Assembly: GCF_000230735.2 (NCBI RefSeq) | Contig: NC_019962.1 | Location: 1-64,000 of the forward strand | Direction of reading: 5' to 3' | Length of the DNA: 64,000 nt | DNA from: Natrinema pellirubrum DSM 15624 | Lineage (GTDB): Archaea; Halobacteriota; Halobacteria; Halobacteriales; Natrialbaceae | In this document: one piece after another, positions 25,077-45,090 of the stretch | How the letters are laid out: each line of letters opens with the position of its first letter | Position numbering within the stretch: position 1 is the first letter of the stretch | Notes under the pieces: generated by a model | Told to the model about the DNA's origin: nothing | Databases searched by the model: none | What the model saw: the letters and a program-made list of their open reading frames with translations, nothing else | Position numbers and translations under genes: made by a program

Positions 25077-25355
25077 ATGAGTACGTCGGTCAAAGTCACG
25101 GACCGAACGAAGTCGCGTCTCGAGGAGCTGCAGGCCGAAATCCGGCTCGAGACGGGGAAGAAGGTGACGCAGGAGGCGTTGCTCGAGCGACTCGTCACGG
25201 AGCCGTACGAGTCGAAAGCCGACGTGATCGACTCGTTCCGGGACGATTTCGAACCGCTCTCCGACGACGAAATCGAGCAGTGGTTGTCCGGCAGTTCGGA
25301 CTGGGGTGTCGAAACGAACGAAGACGAGATCGATGCGGTACTGTACGGCGAATGA
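25077..25355 (+). CDS. VapB-type antitoxin
   Basis: A 92-aa protein. The N-terminus is a ribbon-helix-helix-like unit (SVKVTDRTKSRLEELQAEI, GKKVTQEALLERLV). The C-terminal half is acidic and probably disordered until it binds toxin (SDDEIEQWLSGSSDWGVE). Its stop overlaps the ATG of the PIN toxin gene (ATGA), the usual arrangement of vapBC operons. Confidence 0.82.
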   Translation: MSTSVKVTDRTKSRLEELQAEIRLETGKKVTQEALLERLVTEPYESKADVIDSFRDDFEPLSDDEIEQWLSGSSDWGVETNEDEIDAVLYGE

Positions 25356-25792
25356 GCCTCCTCGTCGATACTGGTGTTTTCGTTGCCGTTCAAAACGAGC
25401 GGGACGAACACCACGAAGCAGCGACGAACGCGTTGAAAGCTGCGTTGACCGGTGAGTTTGGTACACTATATACGAACGATTACGTGTACGACGAAGCGGT
25501 GACGCTCACCCGAATGCGGACGGGCAGTCACCGCGAAGCACGGACTGTCGGCGATCGGATCGCCGGGCGCGGTCCGTTTCCCGATCGGATCAAGATGCTG
25601 TTCGTCTCCGACGACCGATTCGAGCAAACGGTCCGCGTTTTCGACCGTTACGACGACCATGACCTCAGCTTCACGGACGCGAGCCTCGTCGTGTTCGTCG
25701 AAAACAGTGATATCGATGTTGTTCTCAGTTTTGACGACGATTTCGACGGCCTCGTCGATCGAATCGATCCGACGATGATCAGCGACGGGTAA
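25352..25792 (+). CDS. VapC-type PIN-domain toxin ribonuclease
   Basis: A 146-aa PIN protein. It starts SLLVDTGVFVAVQNERDEHH (first Asp), has NDYVYDEAVTLTRMR (Glu), then LSFTDASLVVFVENSDIDVVLSFDDDFDG, carrying the TDA and DxDF Asp residues of the metal site. Overlap of 4 bases with the antitoxin gene. Targets are not predictable. Confidence 0.85.
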   Translation: MSLLVDTGVFVAVQNERDEHHEAATNALKAALTGEFGTLYTNDYVYDEAVTLTRMRTGSHREARTVGDRIAGRGPFPDRIKMLFVSDDRFEQTVRVFDRYDDHDLSFTDASLVVFVENSDIDVVLSFDDDFDGLVDRIDPTMISDG

Positions 25793-28238: not shown

Positions 28239-28829
28239 ATGAACGACAAAACCGAGGAACTCCGGGACATCTTCACCGACGTCACCGACGGCGAGGAGAC
28301 CGTCACCGAATCACAAGAGGACACCCGCGGCTCCTTAGAGCGGGACGAACGGACCGATCAGGAACGCCTCGAGAGCGTCGTCCAGCAGATGCGCGAGCGC
28401 TACGAGTTCGAGACGCCGCTCTCGGACGACGAACTACTCACCGTCGCCAGAGGCTTTTACGACGACCGGAGCGACGAGGCGGTCGCCGACGACCTCGGTG
28501 TCGACGCCGAGGTCGTCTTCGAGGCCCGCATGTCGCTGCATCTCGTCGGCGAGGACGACGCCGACGAGGTCGACCTCGCGGCGATCCGCGACCGCGACGC
28601 CGACGACGCGACGCTCGCCGACGACTACGGCGTCAGCGAGGCCGCGATCCGCCGCTACCGCCGCGTCGCCGAGGCCGAGGACCAGTCCCGGACCGCCAAC
28701 GACCGCTACCGCGACGAGTTCGACAGCGTCCTCGCCGACGCCGACCTCTCCGAACGCATGACCTCCGACCTCCGCGAGGACGGCCTCGAGGACGCCACTG
28801 AGGGGATGGAGACGGACGTGGAGTTCTGA
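28239..28829 (+). CDS. cmi4: Conditioned-medium-induced protein 4 (Cmi4)-like
   Basis: A 196-aa acidic protein resembling the haloarchaeal proteins annotated as conditioned medium-induced protein 4, named for induction by culture-conditioned medium. That name rests on recall of the start MNDKTEELRDIFTDVT and of general size. Two tandem helix-turn-helix-like units are visible: DELLTVARGFYDDRSDEAVADDLGVDAEVVF (here DEAVADDLGVD) and DATLADDYGVSEAAIRRYRR. They suggest a DNA-binding regulator. No partner gene is adjacent. Confidence 0.7.
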   Translation: MNDKTEELRDIFTDVTDGEETVTESQEDTRGSLERDERTDQERLESVVQQMRERYEFETPLSDDELLTVARGFYDDRSDEAVADDLGVDAEVVFEARMSLHLVGEDDADEVDLAAIRDRDADDATLADDYGVSEAAIRRYRRVAEAEDQSRTANDRYRDEFDSVLADADLSERMTSDLREDGLEDATEGMETDVEF

Positions 28830-28948: not shown

Positions 28949-29203
28949 TCATTCCGTTACTAGAGCATAGCCAATCCAGAGGACAATCGGACCAATAATC
29001 GGTATCAGAATAGATGTTACCAACATTACCCCAGTCAAAAGAAATACTCTGTCCGTGTCGTCTTCTGTTGCACGGAAGTACATTCCTGCCGTCGGAATTC
29101 CGACCATCACTACGATCGCTGCACTAATTAGTATCAACTCTTCTGTCTGAATGAATAACAACGCGTCTATTCCTATTTTAATTATTCCACTTGATAATAC
29201 CAT
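28949..29203 (-). CDS. Small membrane protein of an AT-rich patch
   Basis: An 84-aa protein with two or three hydrophobic helices (LILISAAIVVMVGIPTAGMYF and VFLLTGVMLVTSILIPIIG) joined by RATEDDTDR. No recognised family. Its DNA is far lower in GC than its left neighbour, as are the two genes to the right, indicating acquired DNA. Confidence 0.6.
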   Translation of the reverse strand: MVLSSGIIKIGIDALLFIQTEELILISAAIVVMVGIPTAGMYFRATEDDTDRVFLLTGVMLVTSILIPIIGPIVLWIGYALVTE

Positions 29204-29347
29204 TATAGTCCCTATTTGACTGCGTAGTTATTATACTTACTATATTCAATTCTCTATATTAAGGCGGGAAATAATATCGAGGTGTCTTACTCAGCAACCT
29301 TCTAAAATAACAAACAGTATATGGTGGGTGATTTATAGAATATGGCT

Positions 29348-29983
29348 CTAATGACCCTTGTCAATAGTTATTTTATTTATCTGCACGTATTCACCGCTGT
29401 CTCCATCTTCATTTCCGAAATCAGCAAAAGACATACTTACTCCCTGTACGTGAGCCTCAACTCTTAGTTTTACCCAGACATTATAAGTATCATTGACATC
29501 AAGTTCAAAATTATTTATTTTCCCTTTATATTGGCTCAAACCATTAGTAGAATTAGCTCCCGCCCTTGCGGCCGAAAAATTCAGCAGGGAGACACTTCTC
29601 GTGGTTCCAGAATCTACATCTTCAATGATTCCCTCGATCTCAGCTTCAGCAGATCCAGAACCTCCTGCGAAAACATATCCAGAAGCGGATATGTCGAAAT
29701 AAATATCAACAAGGTCTTCTGGATCATCTCCATCTGAGTCATAGACTTCTATTTGACGACCGAGCCACACCTCTCCTTTGTAGCCGCCCCATCCTTGACC
29801 GACAACAGCAGTGCCAGTAATATATTCGTCAGCACCGGAGGGAGCACTCTCCCAATGCCAGTTAACCCCATTCCCAGTAACCCCGAGTGGTTTCCACGTT
29901 TTATCTGCTTTTTTCGCTCGATTGAAGTCATGGATATCCACTGCCTCTTCGCCGTCAGTATCTATACGCACAGGATGAGTCAT
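29348..29983 (-). CDS. AT-rich hypothetical protein, second gene of a two-gene cassette
   Basis: Unrecognised 211-aa protein, probably beta-rich. It opens THPVRIDTDGEEAVDIHDFN and contains WHWESAPSGADEYITGTAVVGQG and VWLGRQIEVYDSDGDDPEDL, ending in short strands (YVQINKITIDKGH). No signal peptide or membrane helix is visible. Its ATG follows the stop of the upstream Tat-signal gene by two bases, so they form an operon. Lys and Asn content is higher than in core haloarchaeal proteins. Confidence 0.65.
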   Translation of the reverse strand: MTHPVRIDTDGEEAVDIHDFNRAKKADKTWKPLGVTGNGVNWHWESAPSGADEYITGTAVVGQGWGGYKGEVWLGRQIEVYDSDGDDPEDLVDIYFDISASGYVFAGGSGSAEAEIEGIIEDVDSGTTRSVSLLNFSAARAGANSTNGLSQYKGKINNFELDVNDTYNVWVKLRVEAHVQGVSMSFADFGNEDGDSGEYVQINKITIDKGH

Positions 29984-29985
29984 TA

Positions 29986-30390
29986 TTATTTATCTTCCTC
30001 TCTAATACTGATAGTATACTCATCTTCTTTTATCTCACTCTTCTTTCTACGATTTATTTCTCTCTTATCTCTTTCATCAATCTGTGGGAGTTTTTTCAAG
30101 TTAATCTTTATACGGGTGTTTCTCCTTCCAGAGTTTAACTTTAGGGTTACTCTAGGGACGGTCGGATAATTGCGCAAATCATTTATAAGATCTTTATCAG
30201 TGATACGCTTGTATAATATATTTTTGTTTTTTTGGACCCATCCCTCTTTCACTAGTTCATCCCGTAGATTTTCATCTGTTTCTTTAGGTATTTCATTCCC
30301 ATTACCCTTGCCAGATGCAAGACTTGTTCCACCCACTAGGAGTGATACCATGCTAATATTCCGAAGTACCGATCTTCTATTACTTCTCAT
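29986..30390 (-). CDS. AT-rich, lysine-rich exported hypothetical protein, first gene of a two-gene cassette
   Basis: A 134-aa protein starting SNRRSVLRNISMVSLLVGG, a twin-arginine-like signal followed by a Gly/Ser cleavage region (SLASGKGNGNE). The mature part is charged and strikingly Lys/Arg/Asn-rich (LNSGRRNTRIKINLKKLPQI, RREINRRKKS-type runs), unlike the acidic proteome. ATG 30390 is chosen over TTG 30414. Operon with 29348-29983. Foreign origin is inferred from composition. Confidence 0.6.
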   Translation of the reverse strand: MRSNRRSVLRNISMVSLLVGGTSLASGKGNGNEIPKETDENLRDELVKEGWVQKNKNILYKRITDKDLINDLRNYPTVPRVTLKLNSGRRNTRIKINLKKLPQIDERDKREINRRKKSEIKEDEYTISIREEDK

Positions 30391-30680
30391 AACTCCATAT
30401 AAGGATTTCACCAATAGTATATGTATTCAACTATTATAGACTGATCATATGGTTGCGTTCGGGAGCCGACCTCGGATACTATCGCTCTAGGTGATGTGTG
30501 TGTGTGTGTGTTTATTCCACGCGTACAGACGTTCGTTCGGGATTACGGGCAAGAAACTAACGTACACACGATGTTCGCTGACCCCTGCGACTCGCCGAGC
30601 GGTACATCACCTCGGCGCACACGCGCCGGTTCACGTTGTCCGGGCGGGACTTCTTATAGGAAACCGCGTCCAAACGGACT
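30391..30680. other. Intergenic junction with a (TG)8 tract
   Basis: 290 bases between the AT-rich cassette and the Cas4-like gene. It contains a (TG)8 microsatellite (30495-30510) and a change from AT-rich to GC-rich DNA. No gene is recognised. CTTCTTATAGG around 30650 may be the TATA element for the Cas4-like gene (start 30681). Confidence 0.4.
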
Positions 30681-31364
30681 GTGACCTGCACGTACATCTC
30701 GTTCAGTGACCTCCGCACCGCCGCCTACTGCCCCCGGAAGTGCTACTATCAGCAGCGACTCCCGGCAGAGGAGCGCGAGCCGCCGCCCGAAGTCGACGCG
30801 ATCCGGGCGCTCGAGCCCCGCTACGAATCGCTGCTCGAGGCTCCACCGGGGGACCTCGAGGACGAACCGATCGCCGTCCCGGCGGTTCGGTACCGGGATC
30901 GACTGGCGGCGACCCGTGACCGGCTCGCGGAGAGCGGGCAGTGGGACCGGCTTCGAGACCCGCTCGACCGCGACGTGTTCGCGACCGGCCGCCACTGTCG
31001 CGGGATCGTTCACAAGGTCCTTGCCGACCCGCTCGAGCCGGTGCTGGTGTCTTCGGGGGAGCCGCCCGAGAACGGCGTCTGGGAGTCCCAGTCGGTCCAG
31101 GCGGTCGCGGCCGCGAAGGCAATCGCATGGGAACATCAGACGTCGGTCGAACGGGCCTGGCTCGAGTATCCGGCCCACGGCGTGATCCGCTCGGTCGACA
31201 TGACGACCCGCCGGAAAGCGACCTACAGGAGCGCGTTGCGGGCGATCCGTGAGCTTGACGGTCCGCCCCCGCGGACGACCAACCGCTCGAAATGCGAGTC
31301 CTGTGAGTTCGCTGCGGAGTGTGGTGTCACGACGCGGACGTTGCGATCGCTGCTGGGATTGTAG
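30681..31364 (+). CDS. Solitary Cas4/RecB-like Fe-S protein, nuclease motif degenerate
   Basis: A 227-aa protein with the N-terminal TAAYCPRKCYYQ and C-terminal KCESCEFAAECG cysteines expected to ligate a 4Fe-4S cluster in Cas4/DUF83 proteins. Between them, the usual metal-binding Asp of the G-x-x-D block appears as RGIVHKVLADP, and the ExK block reads EPVLVSSGEPP, so nuclease residues seem absent. No other cas gene or CRISPR repeat is seen nearby. Starts with GTG. Confidence 0.68.
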   Translation: MTCTYISFSDLRTAAYCPRKCYYQQRLPAEEREPPPEVDAIRALEPRYESLLEAPPGDLEDEPIAVPAVRYRDRLAATRDRLAESGQWDRLRDPLDRDVFATGRHCRGIVHKVLADPLEPVLVSSGEPPENGVWESQSVQAVAAAKAIAWEHQTSVERAWLEYPAHGVIRSVDMTTRRKATYRSALRAIRELDGPPPRTTNRSKCESCEFAAECGVTTRTLRSLLGL

Positions 31365-40347: not shown

Positions 40348-40542
40348 TTACCCTCCGGTCCCGCAGGTGTCGATTCCAAGCACTGCGTTCACCGGACACC
40401 GCTGGATGACCGCGGTTGCGAGGATGTCGCTCCCGGCGATGAACGCCAGCGTCCCGAGCGTTCGGTTCCGGTTTCGGTATCCGAGGACGAGGAGTGTCGC
40501 CGCGAGGACGAGCCGGTCGAATCCGCCGACGTTTCGTCTATG
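40348..40542 (-). CDS. DUF2892 (YgaP-like) inner-membrane domain, start codon not found
   Basis: Reading the minus strand gives NVGGFDRLVLAATLLVLGYR, then NRTLGTLAFIAGSDILATAV, then IQRCPVNAVLGIDTCGTGG and TAA (40348-40350). This is the full two-helix DUF2892 domain with its CP-x5-LGI-x-TC end. In frame the region is open to a TAG at 40582-40584, but no ATG, GTG or TTG occurs before the domain. It is either a decayed gene or uses a non-canonical start. The domain is often found on or near rhodanese-like proteins; none lies here. Confidence 0.5.
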   Translation of the reverse strand, partial: HRRNVGGFDRLVLAATLLVLGYRNRNRTLGTLAFIAGSDILATAVIQRCPVNAVLGIDTCGTGG

Positions 40543-40659
40543 TCCGAATATAAGACCAACGAGTACGTAATAGTGGAGTCCCTAACAGGGCTCGGTCCCG
40601 TCTGTCTCGCCGACTTCGCCGTGCAGATCGTCCTCGTGGGACGCGACGCCGCCTCAAAT

Positions 40660-41012
40660 TCAAGGACGTAAATATGACTTTTGGCAGCCGTCGAAGTATT
40701 CCATCACAGCACAGTAGTGCCTTCTGGTCGACGATGTACGGGATGAAATCTTCTGGTTCGTAATCGGTATCGACGTCATAATCGGGTTTCGCTCGTATTC
40801 GTCAACCTCTACCTGTGGGTGAAGAGGGGCCGCGGGTCGTCTGGACTCCATTCGAGGTCGGCTATCCCCCGGTGCCGCCTGTTATACGGCGAGCCTTGAC
40901 GCCAGTTGTCAAGAGATTCCACAGCTGCTGTCGGTTGATCTTTCTCGAGTTTGGCAATCTCTAACAGGTGTTGGAATAAAAAATTATTTATCCTCCTATG
41001 ACTTTGCGGCAA
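40660..41012 (-). pseudogene. Gene remnant in shifted frames
   Basis: Two or three minus-strand pieces in different frames. One runs through HLLEIAKLEKDQPTAAVESL and DLEWSPDDPRPLFTH. Another is acidic (KPDYDVDTDYEPEDFIPYIV, then DQKALLCCDGILRRLPK) and looks haloarchaeal, but its frame has an upstream stop. No family is recognised. They probably derive from one lost gene at the edge of the mobile zone. Confidence 0.3.
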
Positions 41013-41016
41013 ATTG

Positions 41017-41334
41017 ATGCTTGGAAGACGAGATCTGTTAAAACGAGGAACTGGTGTAGTGACTGGAGCGGGCCTTCTAGGAGGTGGCCTTGTTGGTCAA
41101 GTCTCAGCACGCGGGTCTTGGCAACTCGTTCTAAAAGAAACTAGAGGTGTTGAACTGGAATATAAAGTTGATACGATGGGTGGACAAGGTAGCGCACTGA
41201 AGGAACCTGTTGACGTAGATGAGAGTGCTCATCAGATTAATCATACCGGAGAAATAATGGGTACCTTGAACGATAGTACACATGTCTGGGAACATGATGA
41301 CGAAGCAGGTGTGATAGATTATATCGAACGCTCT
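41017..41334 (+). pseudogene. N-terminal part of a Tat-exported protein split by an IS1595 element
   Basis: A twin-arginine signal (LGRRDLLKRGTGVVTGAG) followed by an Ala/Gly cleavage region (GLVGQVSA), then ELEYKVDTMGGQG-type sequence and HVWEHDDEAGVIDYIERS. The frame stops soon after, where the IS1595 region begins. AT-rich. The reading of the right flank, 43440-43786, could continue it (SIRQRQLSGVNNLLQ), giving about 220 residues. Confidence 0.45.
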
Positions 41335-41354
41335 TGTGTAGCACTTTGTTGATC

Positions 41355-42136
41355 TCACAGCGTAGCTTTGATAGCGTGTTTGAGCGCTTCTCTTCCCGGT
41401 TTCCGCAGTAGTTTTCGTCGAAGCTGGAACGCTCGGAGATACTGTGTGAGCTTATCTTTTGAGACGCCTCGATGAGGCGAGAGCCACGGTCGCAGCAGCG
41501 ATCCGTGGCTCTCGCAGGTATTGACGTGGACATCTTCATCCGCGTATTCGCCGTCGCCGTGGACGACGTATTCGCGCTCGAATGCGTCGTCCTCGTTGAG
41601 TGGGTCGTAGACACGAAATCCGTCGGTGTAGACGGTCAGTGGCTCCTTCTCGCGGTTTGCGAGAAGGAGCCGAACCGTTGATTCGTCGGCGGATTTCGCG
41701 GGGATCACGTACCGATTGTCGGTGCCGCGATCGACGATCGTGAACACCGGCGGTTTGTCCTGATCGTACGATCCTCGTCCACGCGTGGACAGGCCACGCG
41801 AGCGCGACCGAGCGTCGCGCTCGCGGCCTTTCAGCCCTGCAGAAACGTAGACTTCGTCGATTTCAACGGGACCGACGAGGTCGATCGAAGGCGCGTCGAG
41901 CGCCTTCGTGAAGCGCTCGACGCGCTGGTAAATCGTTTTGTACTGAACGTCGATTTCTAGCTGAAGTTGGCGAAGACTCGTGTTAAACCGGAGAAACGCG
42001 TAAATCGAGAACAGCCACTTTCTGAGTGCAACCTTCGAATGGGCGAAAATCGTGCCGGTCTTGTCGTTGAATGTGCGGTCGCAATTCTTACAGAGATAGC
42101 GCTGAAAGTTCCCATAGCTGCCGTTCTTGACCGTTA
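41355..42136 (-). pseudogene. IS1595 transposase, C-terminal part
   Basis: Carries TVKNGSYGNFQRYLCKNCDR (second half of the zinc ribbon), FNDKTGTIFAHSKVALRKWL, VEIDEVYVSAGLKGR (first catalytic Asp-containing block, D-E-V), LTVYTDGFRVYDPL (second Asp) and CESHGSLLRPWLSPHRGVSKD, typical of the ISXO2/IS1595 DDE-type domain. The missing N-terminus lies beyond the IS630 copy, at 43299-43403, encoding the CPRC half of the zinc ribbon. The 5' boundary is the TA at 42135. Confidence 0.85.
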
Positions 42137-43296
42137 GTGATTCGGGAAAGTTATTGAGTAGAAGTATCTCTTTAGTGTAGTGACTGGTCGAGAGAAGAAA
42201 ATCGTGCGACACCTGAGTGAAGAAGATCTGGATCGTCTTCTCGGCGAGGCAGACGATCAGAAGGAATTCGAACGCCTCGTGTTCATCAAACGGCTGTACA
42301 AGGGTGCCACGCTGAAGGAAGCCGCCGACGACGTCGGGAAATCTGAGGGCACCGCCACGAACTGGGTTAACCGCTGGAACGAAGGAGGTCTCGGCAAACT
42401 CACTCCGAACTTCGGGGGCGGTCGGCCCCCGAAGCTCGACGAAGACCAACAAGACGAACTCATCGATCGACTACGTGAGGGACAACCGTGGAAAAAACAG
42501 GAGATTCAGCACCTTCTCGACGAGGAGTTCGACGTCGAATATCATCCACACTACCTCCCAACGTTCCTACACAATCTCGGCCTTTCCTACGCCATTCCTC
42601 GGACAAAACGGCCTGATCGACCCGACAACGCCGAAGAGATCCTCGACGAACGCGTTGAGTACGCGTTCGACGAGGATGCTCACGACCAGCCACATAATAA
42701 GCGCGAGAGTGACGACGATGACGACGAAGAGAAGTGGCGTACCGATGAGGATATCTGCACTGATGGCGGGACTGTGGTGGGATTTTTCGATGTCTCGCAT
42801 CCACAACCATGGGACAACTCTCAGCGACTGTATACGGTCGATGAACCACATATCACTCGGCCGCTGGTGAAAATCGATACACCAGCGGCCGGGTTCTATG
42901 CGCTCAACGGAGAGAGCGTGCTGTCGTTCCCACCGAACCAGGAGAAAGAACAAATCTGTGGGTGTTTCGAGGAGATCCGCGAGCAGAATCCCGGCAAGCG
43001 GATTCTGCTCGTGTTGGATAACTTTTCGTCACACGTCTGCAAGCACACGCGCAAGCGTGCTCATGAACTCGGGATTGATCTGGTGTTCCTTCCGGTTGGT
43101 TCCCCGGACCTCAACCCAATCGAACCTGTCTGGAAGAGTCTCAAGTGGGAGTCTTCGCCGTTGATTGTTAACGGCGAAGACGAGTACCGGAGACTCCTTG
43201 ACGAACTGTTCGACCAACTGACCGAGAAACTGAGTTTCGCTGCATCGTGGATTGACAATCACCTCAGTGGATTTCTCAATAAGATTTGCTAATCAC
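42137..43296 (+). mobile_element. IS630-family element, complete, flanked by TA
   Basis: 1,160 bases. The ends are imperfect inverted repeats: left GTGATTCGGGAAAGTTATTG (42137 on), right, reverse complement, GTGATTAGCAAATCTTATTG (from 43296); 17 of the first 22 bases agree. Each end is flanked by TA (42135-42136 and 43297-43298), the target duplication of IS630/Tc1-type elements. It carries one intact transposase and is inserted in an IS1595 transposase gene. Confidence 0.85.
42180..43292 (+). CDS. IS630-family transposase
   Basis: An intact 370-aa single-frame transposase. N-terminal helix-turn-helix part (YKGATLKEAADDVGKSEGTA, NWVNRWNEGGLGKL), then the DDE domain: VVGFFDVSHPQPW (first Asp), ILLVLDNFSSHVCKH (second Asp) and SPDLNPIEPVWKSLKW (Glu). 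GTG 42180 start, 43 bases inside the left end; its stop (43290-43292) lies within the right inverted repeat. Confidence 0.93.
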   Translation: MTGREKKIVRHLSEEDLDRLLGEADDQKEFERLVFIKRLYKGATLKEAADDVGKSEGTATNWVNRWNEGGLGKLTPNFGGGRPPKLDEDQQDELIDRLREGQPWKKQEIQHLLDEEFDVEYHPHYLPTFLHNLGLSYAIPRTKRPDRPDNAEEILDERVEYAFDEDAHDQPHNKRESDDDDDEEKWRTDEDICTDGGTVVGFFDVSHPQPWDNSQRLYTVDEPHITRPLVKIDTPAAGFYALNGESVLSFPPNQEKEQICGCFEEIREQNPGKRILLVLDNFSSHVCKHTRKRAHELGIDLVFLPVGSPDLNPIEPVWKSLKWESSPLIVNGEDEYRRLLDELFDQLTEKLSFAASWIDNHLSGFLNKIC

Positions 43297-43298
43297 TA

Positions 43299-43403
43299 TC
43301 GGTCAGAACGGCAGCGAGGGCAAGTAACACCGTTACGCCAGCGAACCTGCTCCAACAGGTCCGCTGCGACCGATTCCGACCCAAACACATCTAGCGGAAT
43401 CAT
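43299..43403 (-). pseudogene. IS1595 transposase, N-terminal fragment
   Basis: On the minus strand from ATG 43403: IPLDVFGSESVAADLLEQVR, then WRNGVTCPRCRSDR and a stop created by the insertion. This supplies the first CPxC pair of the zinc ribbon missing from the fragment at 41355-42136. If a single TA is kept, the two halves join with a one-base frame difference, so the gene may have been damaged before or at insertion. Confidence 0.75.
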
Positions 43404-43410
43404 GCCTAAC

Positions 43411-43432
43411 GGACACCGCTGACGCGGTGTCC
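43411..43432. other. Perfect hairpin upstream of the IS1595 transposase start
   Basis: GGACACCGC-tgac-GCGGTGTCC is a 9-bp perfect stem 8 bases before the transposase ATG. It may lie in the transposase leader, or mark the element end; both are inferences. Confidence 0.5.
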
Positions 43433-43439
43433 TTGCTCT

Positions 43440-43786
43440 CTTCGATTCGACAGCGACAGCTAAGCGGCGTCAACAATCTCCTACAGAAGAGCGATATCGA
43501 AATAGTCAGTGATGGATCTCCTCGATTCGTATTTGAACGTGAAGGAGGTACGTCCGGGAATTATCAGGACTACCATATTGAACATTATCAAAACTATATG
43601 GGAGGAAGTTCAAGCGGAGATGCAAGAATTTACGTAGTACCAACGGATAATATAAATGAAGCGAGCTATGGAGCAGGAGAACACTCTGCTGTACACTTTG
43701 ATGGTCGAGCAGTAACCTACTTCCCGAATGATAGTTCATACGTCGGGGGTCCATTTAACGTAGAAGGTGTTATTTTGCTCTGTTGA
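43440..43786 (+). pseudogene. C-terminal part of the split AT-rich protein
   Basis: Open frame SIRQRQLSGVNNLLQKSDIE through SPRFVFEREGGTSGNYQDYH and GGSSSGDARIYVVPTDN to HFDGRAVTYFPNDSSYVGGP and a stop at 43786. Composition (Tyr, Asn, Ser-rich) matches the 41017-41334 fragment rather than the insertion sequences. It has no good start of its own. Joined to that fragment it would form one exported protein interrupted by the IS1595/IS630 composite. Confidence 0.4.
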
Positions 43787-43998
43787 ACGCAAGACGGCGG
43801 CAGTATTGAAATTTTGATATCCAGGTAGATGGCGTTAGAACTCCTGTACTGATTGTTTTGAGATCTGGATGATGTGGGAGGAGTACAGTTCGTTGATTCT
43901 GCAACCATCAGAATTAGGTCACTTTGTGAGAACCCGTACGTGGATGACGGCGATGTCTCTGGCGGATACGTCCAGAGAAAGAGAGCAGGCGGCGAGCC
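43787..43998. other. AT-rich flank of the IS5-type element
   Basis: No gene is supported. The 12-base word CGCAAGACGGCG at 43788-43799 recurs at 44817-44828 on the other side of the transposase. GGTCACTTTGTGAGAA at 43917-43932 is a weak inverted match to 44834-44852 (about 11 of 16), a possible but unproven terminal repeat pair. Confidence 0.3.
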
Positions 43999-44013
43999 CT
44001 AACTCGCCGCCTG
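43986..44013. other. Perfect 11-bp hairpin over the IS5-type transposase stop codon
   Basis: CAGGCGGCGAG-ccctaa... CTCGCCGCCTG: an 11-bp perfect stem with a 6-base loop that includes the transposase stop codon (43999-44001). It could stop transcription or limit read-through into flanking DNA. The structure is seen in the sequence; the role is inferred. Confidence 0.55.
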
Positions 44014-44814
44014 CGATAGGTTATGCACGATACACTTGCGCGTGAGCTCTCGGAACTGGCCGTGCCAGCTCCGAGAGCGTAACTTCTCACCGTCATCCTT
44101 CAGCAGTGAGAACGCAGTCTCACTCAGTGTCCGCTGATGGTACAGATCTTCGTCCATCCGAGCGTTATGCGCTTTCTTCAGCGCATTGTGCTCCCTGTGT
44201 TTGATTAGCGGTCGTGTCGCGCCAGCGCGACACTCCTCTCTGAGATCTGACCACGAATAGTTCGCATCTGCAAGGAACTCTTGCAGGTCTTCGGCGTTGC
44301 GCCGATAGACCTGCAAGCCGATGTGTCCGTCCCACTTGCGCTTCGTCGTGAAATGAACGTCTTTGATCGCCAGTGACTCTGTATCGACCAAAATCGTTGT
44401 CTTCAGCTTGTGAAACGAGAAGCCAGCACGATTCCGGTAATGATAGCTGGTTTGATCTCGCTGGAAGCCACTGGCGTCGATTGCTGCTGTTCCCGACCAG
44501 CCAGCCTGCTCCGCACTGCGGCGGAGCAGGCTGCGGAGTTCACGCATGTCGACCTGTTGCTCCCATCGACAGAGCGTGGTGTGATCCGGCGATTTGTCGA
44601 TGTTAAGCTCTTCACGGATGGCTCTGGAGTCATTGAACCATGCTTCAGTCTCTCGGAAATCTTTGTCGAGTTCCGCATGCAAGAGGATAAACGCGATCTG
44701 AGTCCACTCGGCGAACCCGCTGGCGCCGTCCGGCGCAGCGGGTTCGTCAGGGTTATCCACGTGCTGTTTGGCAAGATTCTTACACTGCCGTATGATCGGC
44801 CGTTTCGACCTCAT
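43999..44814 (-). CDS. IS5-family transposase
   Basis: A 271-aa transposase with the IS4/IS5 DDE domain: TLCRWEQQVDMRELRSLLRR, AIDASGFQRDQTS (first Asp), TTILVDTESLAIKDVHFT (second Asp), DANYSWSDLREECRAG and RRNAEDLQEFLADANY, with the late LIKHREHNALKKAHNARM and ETAFSLLKDDGEKLRSRSW (Glu) blocks. It appears intact. ATG 44814 (RSKRPIIRQCKNLA) is preferred over an upstream in-frame ATG at 44850. Confidence 0.88.
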   Translation of the reverse strand: MRSKRPIIRQCKNLAKQHVDNPDEPAAPDGASGFAEWTQIAFILLHAELDKDFRETEAWFNDSRAIREELNIDKSPDHTTLCRWEQQVDMRELRSLLRRSAEQAGWSGTAAIDASGFQRDQTSYHYRNRAGFSFHKLKTTILVDTESLAIKDVHFTTKRKWDGHIGLQVYRRNAEDLQEFLADANYSWSDLREECRAGATRPLIKHREHNALKKAHNARMDEDLYHQRTLSETAFSLLKDDGEKLRSRSWHGQFRELTRKCIVHNLSQAAS

Positions 44815-45090
44815 ATCGCAAGACGGCGTCCAATTCCCCACAAGCCTCACGGAAATCAGCCGAGAACAAGGCTGAAACTGGTGCTATTCGACGCTGCAAC
44901 AGAGCATGTTATTTCCAAAGCAACTATGTATCCCAAAGGAGACAGACTACGTATTGAACAAGCAACAGGTCATGCATAACCGTAGCTGATTGCTGGATTC
45001 ATCAATCATAATATTCATACCATTCGAATCTTTAGTTTATGTGCCACGCTGGATCCGCGCCATCGCTCTAATGTTACGATCAGCACGCCC
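44815..45090. other. Junction region between the IS5-type element and the truncated TRAP permease
   Basis: Holds an open frame tail in the plus direction (KLVLFDAATEHVISKATMYP, then a stop at 44977-44979) without a start, so it is a remnant. From about 44990 to 45050 the DNA is AT-rich. The right edge passes into TRAP permease codons near 45080. Confidence 0.35.

Follow-up and report, generated by a model that had tools for sequence, protein, structure and literature searches.

The halocins HalH4, HalC8 and HalS8 and the precursor HmHapP (HFX_0892) are exported as precursors that are matured by proteolysis (PMC12893001), and the sulfolobicins are described as heterodimers composed of subunits of approximately 22 kDa (PMC5733018). 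Two further systems are related by sequence to the locus described here. Plasmid pHS3 of Halobacterium salinarum encodes the pair WP_012289614 and WP_010904044, both annotated as 'hypothetical protein', which comprises a Tat-exported protein with the beta domain of our P2 (see below) and a small single-helix membrane protein 36 bp downstream. Methanomethylovorans hollandica plasmid pMETHO01 (WP_015313811) and other methanogens encode exported proteins that share this beta domain; in several of these genomes, the gene for a small membrane protein follows 34-45 bp downstream.

In the window, i.e. the entire 64,000-nucleotide stretch of Natrinema pellirubrum DSM 15624 that was analyzed, three genes with intact frames lie on the reverse strand between 28949 and 30390. 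P1 (29986-30390) encodes a Lys/Arg-rich protein of 134 aa with a Tat signal, P2 (29348-29983) an acidic beta-domain protein of 211 aa without a signal, and P3 (28949-29203) a protein of 84 aa whose hydrophobic segments are predicted to form two membrane helices. Only 2 bases (29984-29985), read directly from the sequence, separate the stop codon of P1 from the ATG of P2, as an earlier sequence-only reading of this DNA had placed them, and translational coupling would be expected across the gap. P3 follows P2 on the same strand after 144 bp.

A Tat-type exported precursor, which P1 would be as judged from its sequence, fits the halocins as haloarchaeal precursors that are exported against neighbors. 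However, halocins derive from one precursor rather than two separate subunits. None of P1-P3 matched a halocin-named model in Pfam or NCBIfam, libraries that may contain none. The sulfolobicins, likened here by description, provide a functional parallel as a two-subunit archaeal antagonist, although they are crenarchaeal and membrane-associated. By analogy, the cassette could work like either of them. The plasmid proteins differ in architecture: in H. salinarum pHS3 the equivalents of P1 and P2 form one chain of 299 aa, and the methanogen members, also one chain, carry a Sec signal and a helical N-terminal region.

The composition of the cassette departs clearly from its surroundings. Its genes have a GC content of 0.36-0.44 (0.356, 0.442 and 0.412 for P1, P2 and P3), a GC3 of 0.31-0.40 compared with 0.84-0.91 in the adjacent genes, and rare codons, and the 1-kb GC profile falls from about 0.65 in the flanks to 0.41 at the cassette, in agreement with its earlier description as AT-rich DNA. 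The accompanying label of a lysine-rich cassette is valid for P1 only (24% Lys plus Arg, pI 10.0), because P2 (pI 4.4) and P3 (pI 4.2) are both acidic. The promoter and terminator scan of the locus was of bacterial type and is uninformative for archaea.

Comparison with related genomes supports horizontal acquisition of the cassette. The segment 28830-30641, with an AT-rich core at approximately 28949-30440, sits between two forward-strand genes outside the cassette that are adjacent in congeners: a gene for a 196-aa protein on the left (28239-28829), which is next to the Cas4-like gene in 26/26 congeners, and the Cas4-like nuclease gene itself on the right (30681-31364), present in 29/29 genomes of the genus. 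Since the intergenic distance between these flanking genes is 1851 bp here and 115-848 bp in all 26 congeners compared, we conclude that the segment was acquired. Comparison of the junctions places the left end of the insert directly past the stop codon of the left gene and the right end before a motif that is conserved ahead of the Cas4-like gene, where the shared sequence resumes at 30642. Neither a repeat search nor the junction comparison found terminal repeats or a target-site duplication. Searches with the single sequences of P1 and P2 found no match in 99 related genomes (28 congeners and 71 other haloarchaea), so that the foreign origin proposed in the sequence-only reading is upheld, the segment being absent from the syntenic slot of every congener compared. 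A profile search did detect a distant P2 relative with its own Tat-signal neighbor in another genome of the same genus (G004), at a different locus. A virus origin was also considered and dropped, as four further scans of viral contigs and a tblastn search of phages found nothing. The Cas4-like gene appears to be stand-alone; it scores just over the cut-off for PF01930 and below that for TIGR00372, and no CRISPR gene was noticed nearby.

The relatives of P2 are not readily seen. P1, P2 and P3 matched no model in Pfam, NCBIfam, PHROGs or PADLOC, with no defence family found in PADLOC-DB at E values up to 1, and single-sequence searches of plasmids and viral contigs returned nothing for P1 or for P2, the latter also searched against phages and GTDB genome contigs. 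The family was reached only by stepping through one relative and then by profile. When 391 class members were scanned with P2, one credible match emerged (genome G164, E 5.7e-7), and this family member sits in a low-GC island. BLASTP with P2 gave E values of 2e-9 for this protein and 2e-7 for the proteins of both H. salinarum pHS3 and Methanomethylovorans pMETHO01, and the G164 protein as query retrieved 'hypothetical proteins' on H. salinarum plasmids (E 1e-32) and the M. hollandica pMETHO01 protein (E 1e-17). A four-sequence profile run over 393 Halobacteriota genomes recovered members in several methanogen families and in two haloarchaea, G145 and G110, and a haloarchaeal profile added G227, G180, G297, G221 and G004 (E 1e-9 or better) together with weaker candidates. 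Weak matches to residues 7-58 of P2 in many haloarchaea were dropped as chance; one of them (L013) is, in frame, Nif3-type-like.

As judged by a leave-one-out profile, built from the other family members, P2 is part of this family: it scored 54.0 bits (E 9e-19), whereas none of 200 shuffles exceeded 4.4 bits. On these sequence grounds, we assign P2 to an archaeal family of exported beta-sandwich proteins that lacks annotation. The family extends over haloarchaea and methanogens and has no database name; in the methanogens its genes do not stand out because the hosts themselves are AT-rich. None of the relatives has a known role, and the locus is not a core one, so that neither of the two outcomes that the sequence-only reading had named as refuting it, homologues of known unrelated role or a conserved core locus, was encountered.

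P1 owes its few database matches to its signal. Its N-terminus, MRSNRRSVLRNISMVSLLVGGTSLAS, corresponds to the Tat signals of haloarchaeal chitinase-like proteins, e.g. MKPTRRTLLRNASNVSILLGGLGVAS, aligning as MKPTRRTLLRNASNVSILLGG... with MRSNRRSVLRNISMVSLLVGG..., which agrees with the twin-arginine signal assigned earlier. The weak matches of P1 to chitinase-like proteins were rejected as homologues, the similarity being confined to this signal.

Within the family, the parts represented by P1 and P2 occur in two arrangements. The methanogen members combine a Sec-type signal, a charged and helical N-terminal region and the beta domain in one chain, and a fused form is also found in H. salinarum (L102), G180, G221, G227 and G297, with a Tat-type signal where the start is readable, and in G164, whose Tat signal is frameshifted. 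The split form, i.e. a Tat-signal gene followed by a signal-less beta-domain gene, occurs in the window and in G110, G145 and G004. The two genes of G110 are 1 base apart (ATG at L132:8725), with the membrane gene 53 bp further on; those of G145 are separated by a transposase gene, and its membrane gene follows after 22 bp; the second gene of G004 begins 16 or 73 bases past the first, according to which start codon is used. The net charge of the split P2 proteins is -20 to -22 in 4/4 pairs, and that of the P1 proteins is +9 to +14 in three of the four, the G110 P1 being neutral overall. The unit of an exported basic protein, a partner and a membrane protein that the sequence-only reading had proposed is supported by its recurrence in G145 and G110 and, with the first two parts fused, in many archaea.

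The N-terminal regions of the split (G110, G145, G004) and fused (G180, G221, G272) forms align with an hhalign E value of 1e-4 and share the pattern 'HG...F(E/D)DGY'. The window P1 gives E values of only 0.4-0.6 against the other N-terminal regions, so that hhalign detects no similarity of its mature part to them. The equivalence draws on position, signal and charge, and P1 is probably the positional counterpart of the signal and N-terminal region of the fused members. The export signal that the fused members have on the same chain is here a Tat signal on P1, the gene 2 bases upstream of P2. Judging from the beta-domain tree, the split may have arisen once or several times. In G004 (L154, 5909-5966), the beta-domain frame carries a Lys/Arg-rich extension upstream of its likely start, reminiscent of the basic tail seen in other P1 proteins, and there may be a frameshift there, either past or programmed. 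In several methanogens, a neighboring gene (downstream in L124 and L128, upstream in L122 and L129) encodes an exported protein with a signal peptide nearly identical to that of the family gene, suggesting further co-exported partners.

The gene downstream of the beta domain seems to be a regular part of the arrangement. A small membrane protein was scored wherever an ORF of 38-160 aa containing a hydrophobic segment lay on the same strand and no more than 160 bp downstream. By this measure, one was found at 12/17 family loci and after 9/129 control genes (Fisher p 1e-8), the controls being picked mechanically from the same loci and possibly including false ORFs. The G004 neighbor is an RDD-family protein and may be coincidental, leaving 11/17 without it. 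P3, directly downstream of P2 on the same strand, conforms to this layout. The methanogen membrane partners resemble one another, and no convincing alignment was obtained between the partners of different groups, P3 included. Sequence relatives of P3 occur in G006, G003 and G404 (L093, L094, L095) at loci without a beta-domain gene; therefore, P3 is a partner by layout only. P3 falls into a family of small two-helix membrane proteins that is found alone in these other haloarchaeal genomes.

On balance, though by no means firmly, we favor the explanation that the locus is an acquired three-gene secretion cassette in which an exported archaeal protein of two parts is split into P1 and P2, with P3 as its membrane partner. 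P1 would supply the Tat signal and the basic N-terminal part, and P2 the acidic beta-sandwich domain. The two proteins, made in step owing to the 2-base gap, would associate in the cytoplasm by virtue of their folds and opposite charges, and P2 would leave the cell as a hitchhiker on the Tat signal of P1. Outside, P2 would bind a surface ligand, whereas P3 would sit in the membrane as a small partner kept directly downstream. That P1 and P2 act together outside the cytoplasm is suggested by the fused one-chain relatives, following a Rosetta-stone argument. Our literature search found no paper joining hitchhiker export, the twin-arginine pathway and haloarchaea.

What such a cassette does is a separate matter. 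The sequence-only reading had proposed a bacteriocin-like or defence function, which gains nothing from Pfam, NCBIfam, PHROGs or PADLOC, where no match was obtained, or from the folds nearest to P2, which are generic binding sandwiches. The most likely use, though at less than even odds, would be an archaeocin-type weapon, with P1 and P2 directed against competitors and P3 serving as the immunity protein of the producing cell. An exported protein with a dedicated membrane protein, the patchy spread of the family and its plasmid location are in favor of this, whereas methanogen beta domains from different families still share 59-71% identity, more than weapons, which tend to evolve fast, would normally retain. 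Many copies are damaged. The copy on pNRC200 of H. salinarum NRC-1 (L158, 1262-3575) is interrupted by ISH8E, and the G145 locus has a transposase inside; full-length copies are present on pHS3 and on seven other Halobacterium plasmid records. In G164 a frameshift lies in the Tat signal (L022, 9409-9540), where the ATG-led frame runs to ...NRTRRKSD and a stop and the rest of the signal continues in another frame, reflecting either a decayed gene or a sequencing error.

The predicted structures bear on another function. The AlphaFold model of P1 (pLDDT 39) is unusable, and the single-sequence model of P2 is a beta sandwich of low confidence (pLDDT 54), a prediction that is backed by the relatives of P2 and accords with its earlier description as beta-rich. 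Among solved structures, the P2 model comes closest, at Z 8-9, to carbohydrate-binding modules, MAM domains, Bd1399 and further sandwiches. Carbohydrate-binding modules, MAM and galactose-binding-like sandwiches thus share their overall fold with this low-confidence model, but at a sequence identity of 5-14% and with no sequence-level match. Based on such folds, P1 and P2 might form a surface-binding or matrix complex that binds to glycans or surface polymers on its own cell or on neighboring cells, with P3 as an anchor, and serve adhesion, biofilm formation or nutrient capture. The conservation of the beta domain in methanogens would suit this role, and a direct membrane partner would fit an anchor. 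However, even the best Z of 9.3 (8okh) comes from a model of pLDDT 54, many unrelated sandwiches score Z 7-9, and about 8 is the usual level between unrelated sandwiches. Moreover, the patchy spread and the many broken copies suggest a dispensable trait, and no catalytic or glycan-degrading neighbors were seen. We regard the surface role as the main rival of antagonism, which we slightly favor because of the patchy spread, the plasmid location and the many damaged copies.

A broader version of the antagonistic reading would make the whole family an interference system of Halobacteriota, carried on plasmids and AT-rich inserts, in which the effector, as one chain in methanogens and some haloarchaea or as two co-exported chains in others, is accompanied by a dedicated small membrane immunity protein and the split acidic subunit is a Tat hitchhiker; in this generality we consider it rather unlikely. 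Still less probable is that P1 is the sole exported effector, with P2 as a cytoplasmic antitoxin, chaperone or immunity protein and P3 unrelated. P2 is indeed signal-less and acidic, P1 is basic, and a 2-base gap is typical of toxin-antitoxin pairs. The fused relatives, however, place the beta domain behind a Tat or Sec signal on the same chain, so that it is exported, and the small gene after it encodes a membrane protein in most loci. Least probable of all is that the segment is unselected AT-rich foreign DNA left by a plasmid or other element, in which P1 is basic as a result of its AT-rich codons, as the low GC, low GC3, rare codons and the IS and frameshift damage in relatives might suggest, since its three frames are intact, P2 is constrained to its family and strongly acidic in spite of such codons, and the split pair with its membrane gene recurs in distant haloarchaea.

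The secretion cassette that we favor draws attention to a family that is not covered by Pfam, NCBIfam or PHROG models, yet occurs in both methanogens and haloarchaea, where an exported beta-domain protein and a small membrane protein are repeatedly encoded side by side. Its split pairs make Tat hitchhiker export of signal-less subunits in haloarchaea directly testable, as well as a possible overlooked system of antagonism; if the interference reading were true, methanogens would gain an exported protein antagonist. The search itself shows that 'orphan' AT-rich inserts of haloarchaea can be traced by profile where single-sequence searches fail.

Two other places in the window may be mentioned. 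At 25077-25792, on the forward strand, a small ORF overlaps a PIN-domain-like ORF, and the two, judged by eye only, are toxin-antitoxin-like. A second low-GC stretch (GC 0.49-0.56) extends over 40500-45000, where transposase-like genes at 42180-43292 and 43999-44850 lie around an AT-rich ORF of 119 aa (43427-43786).
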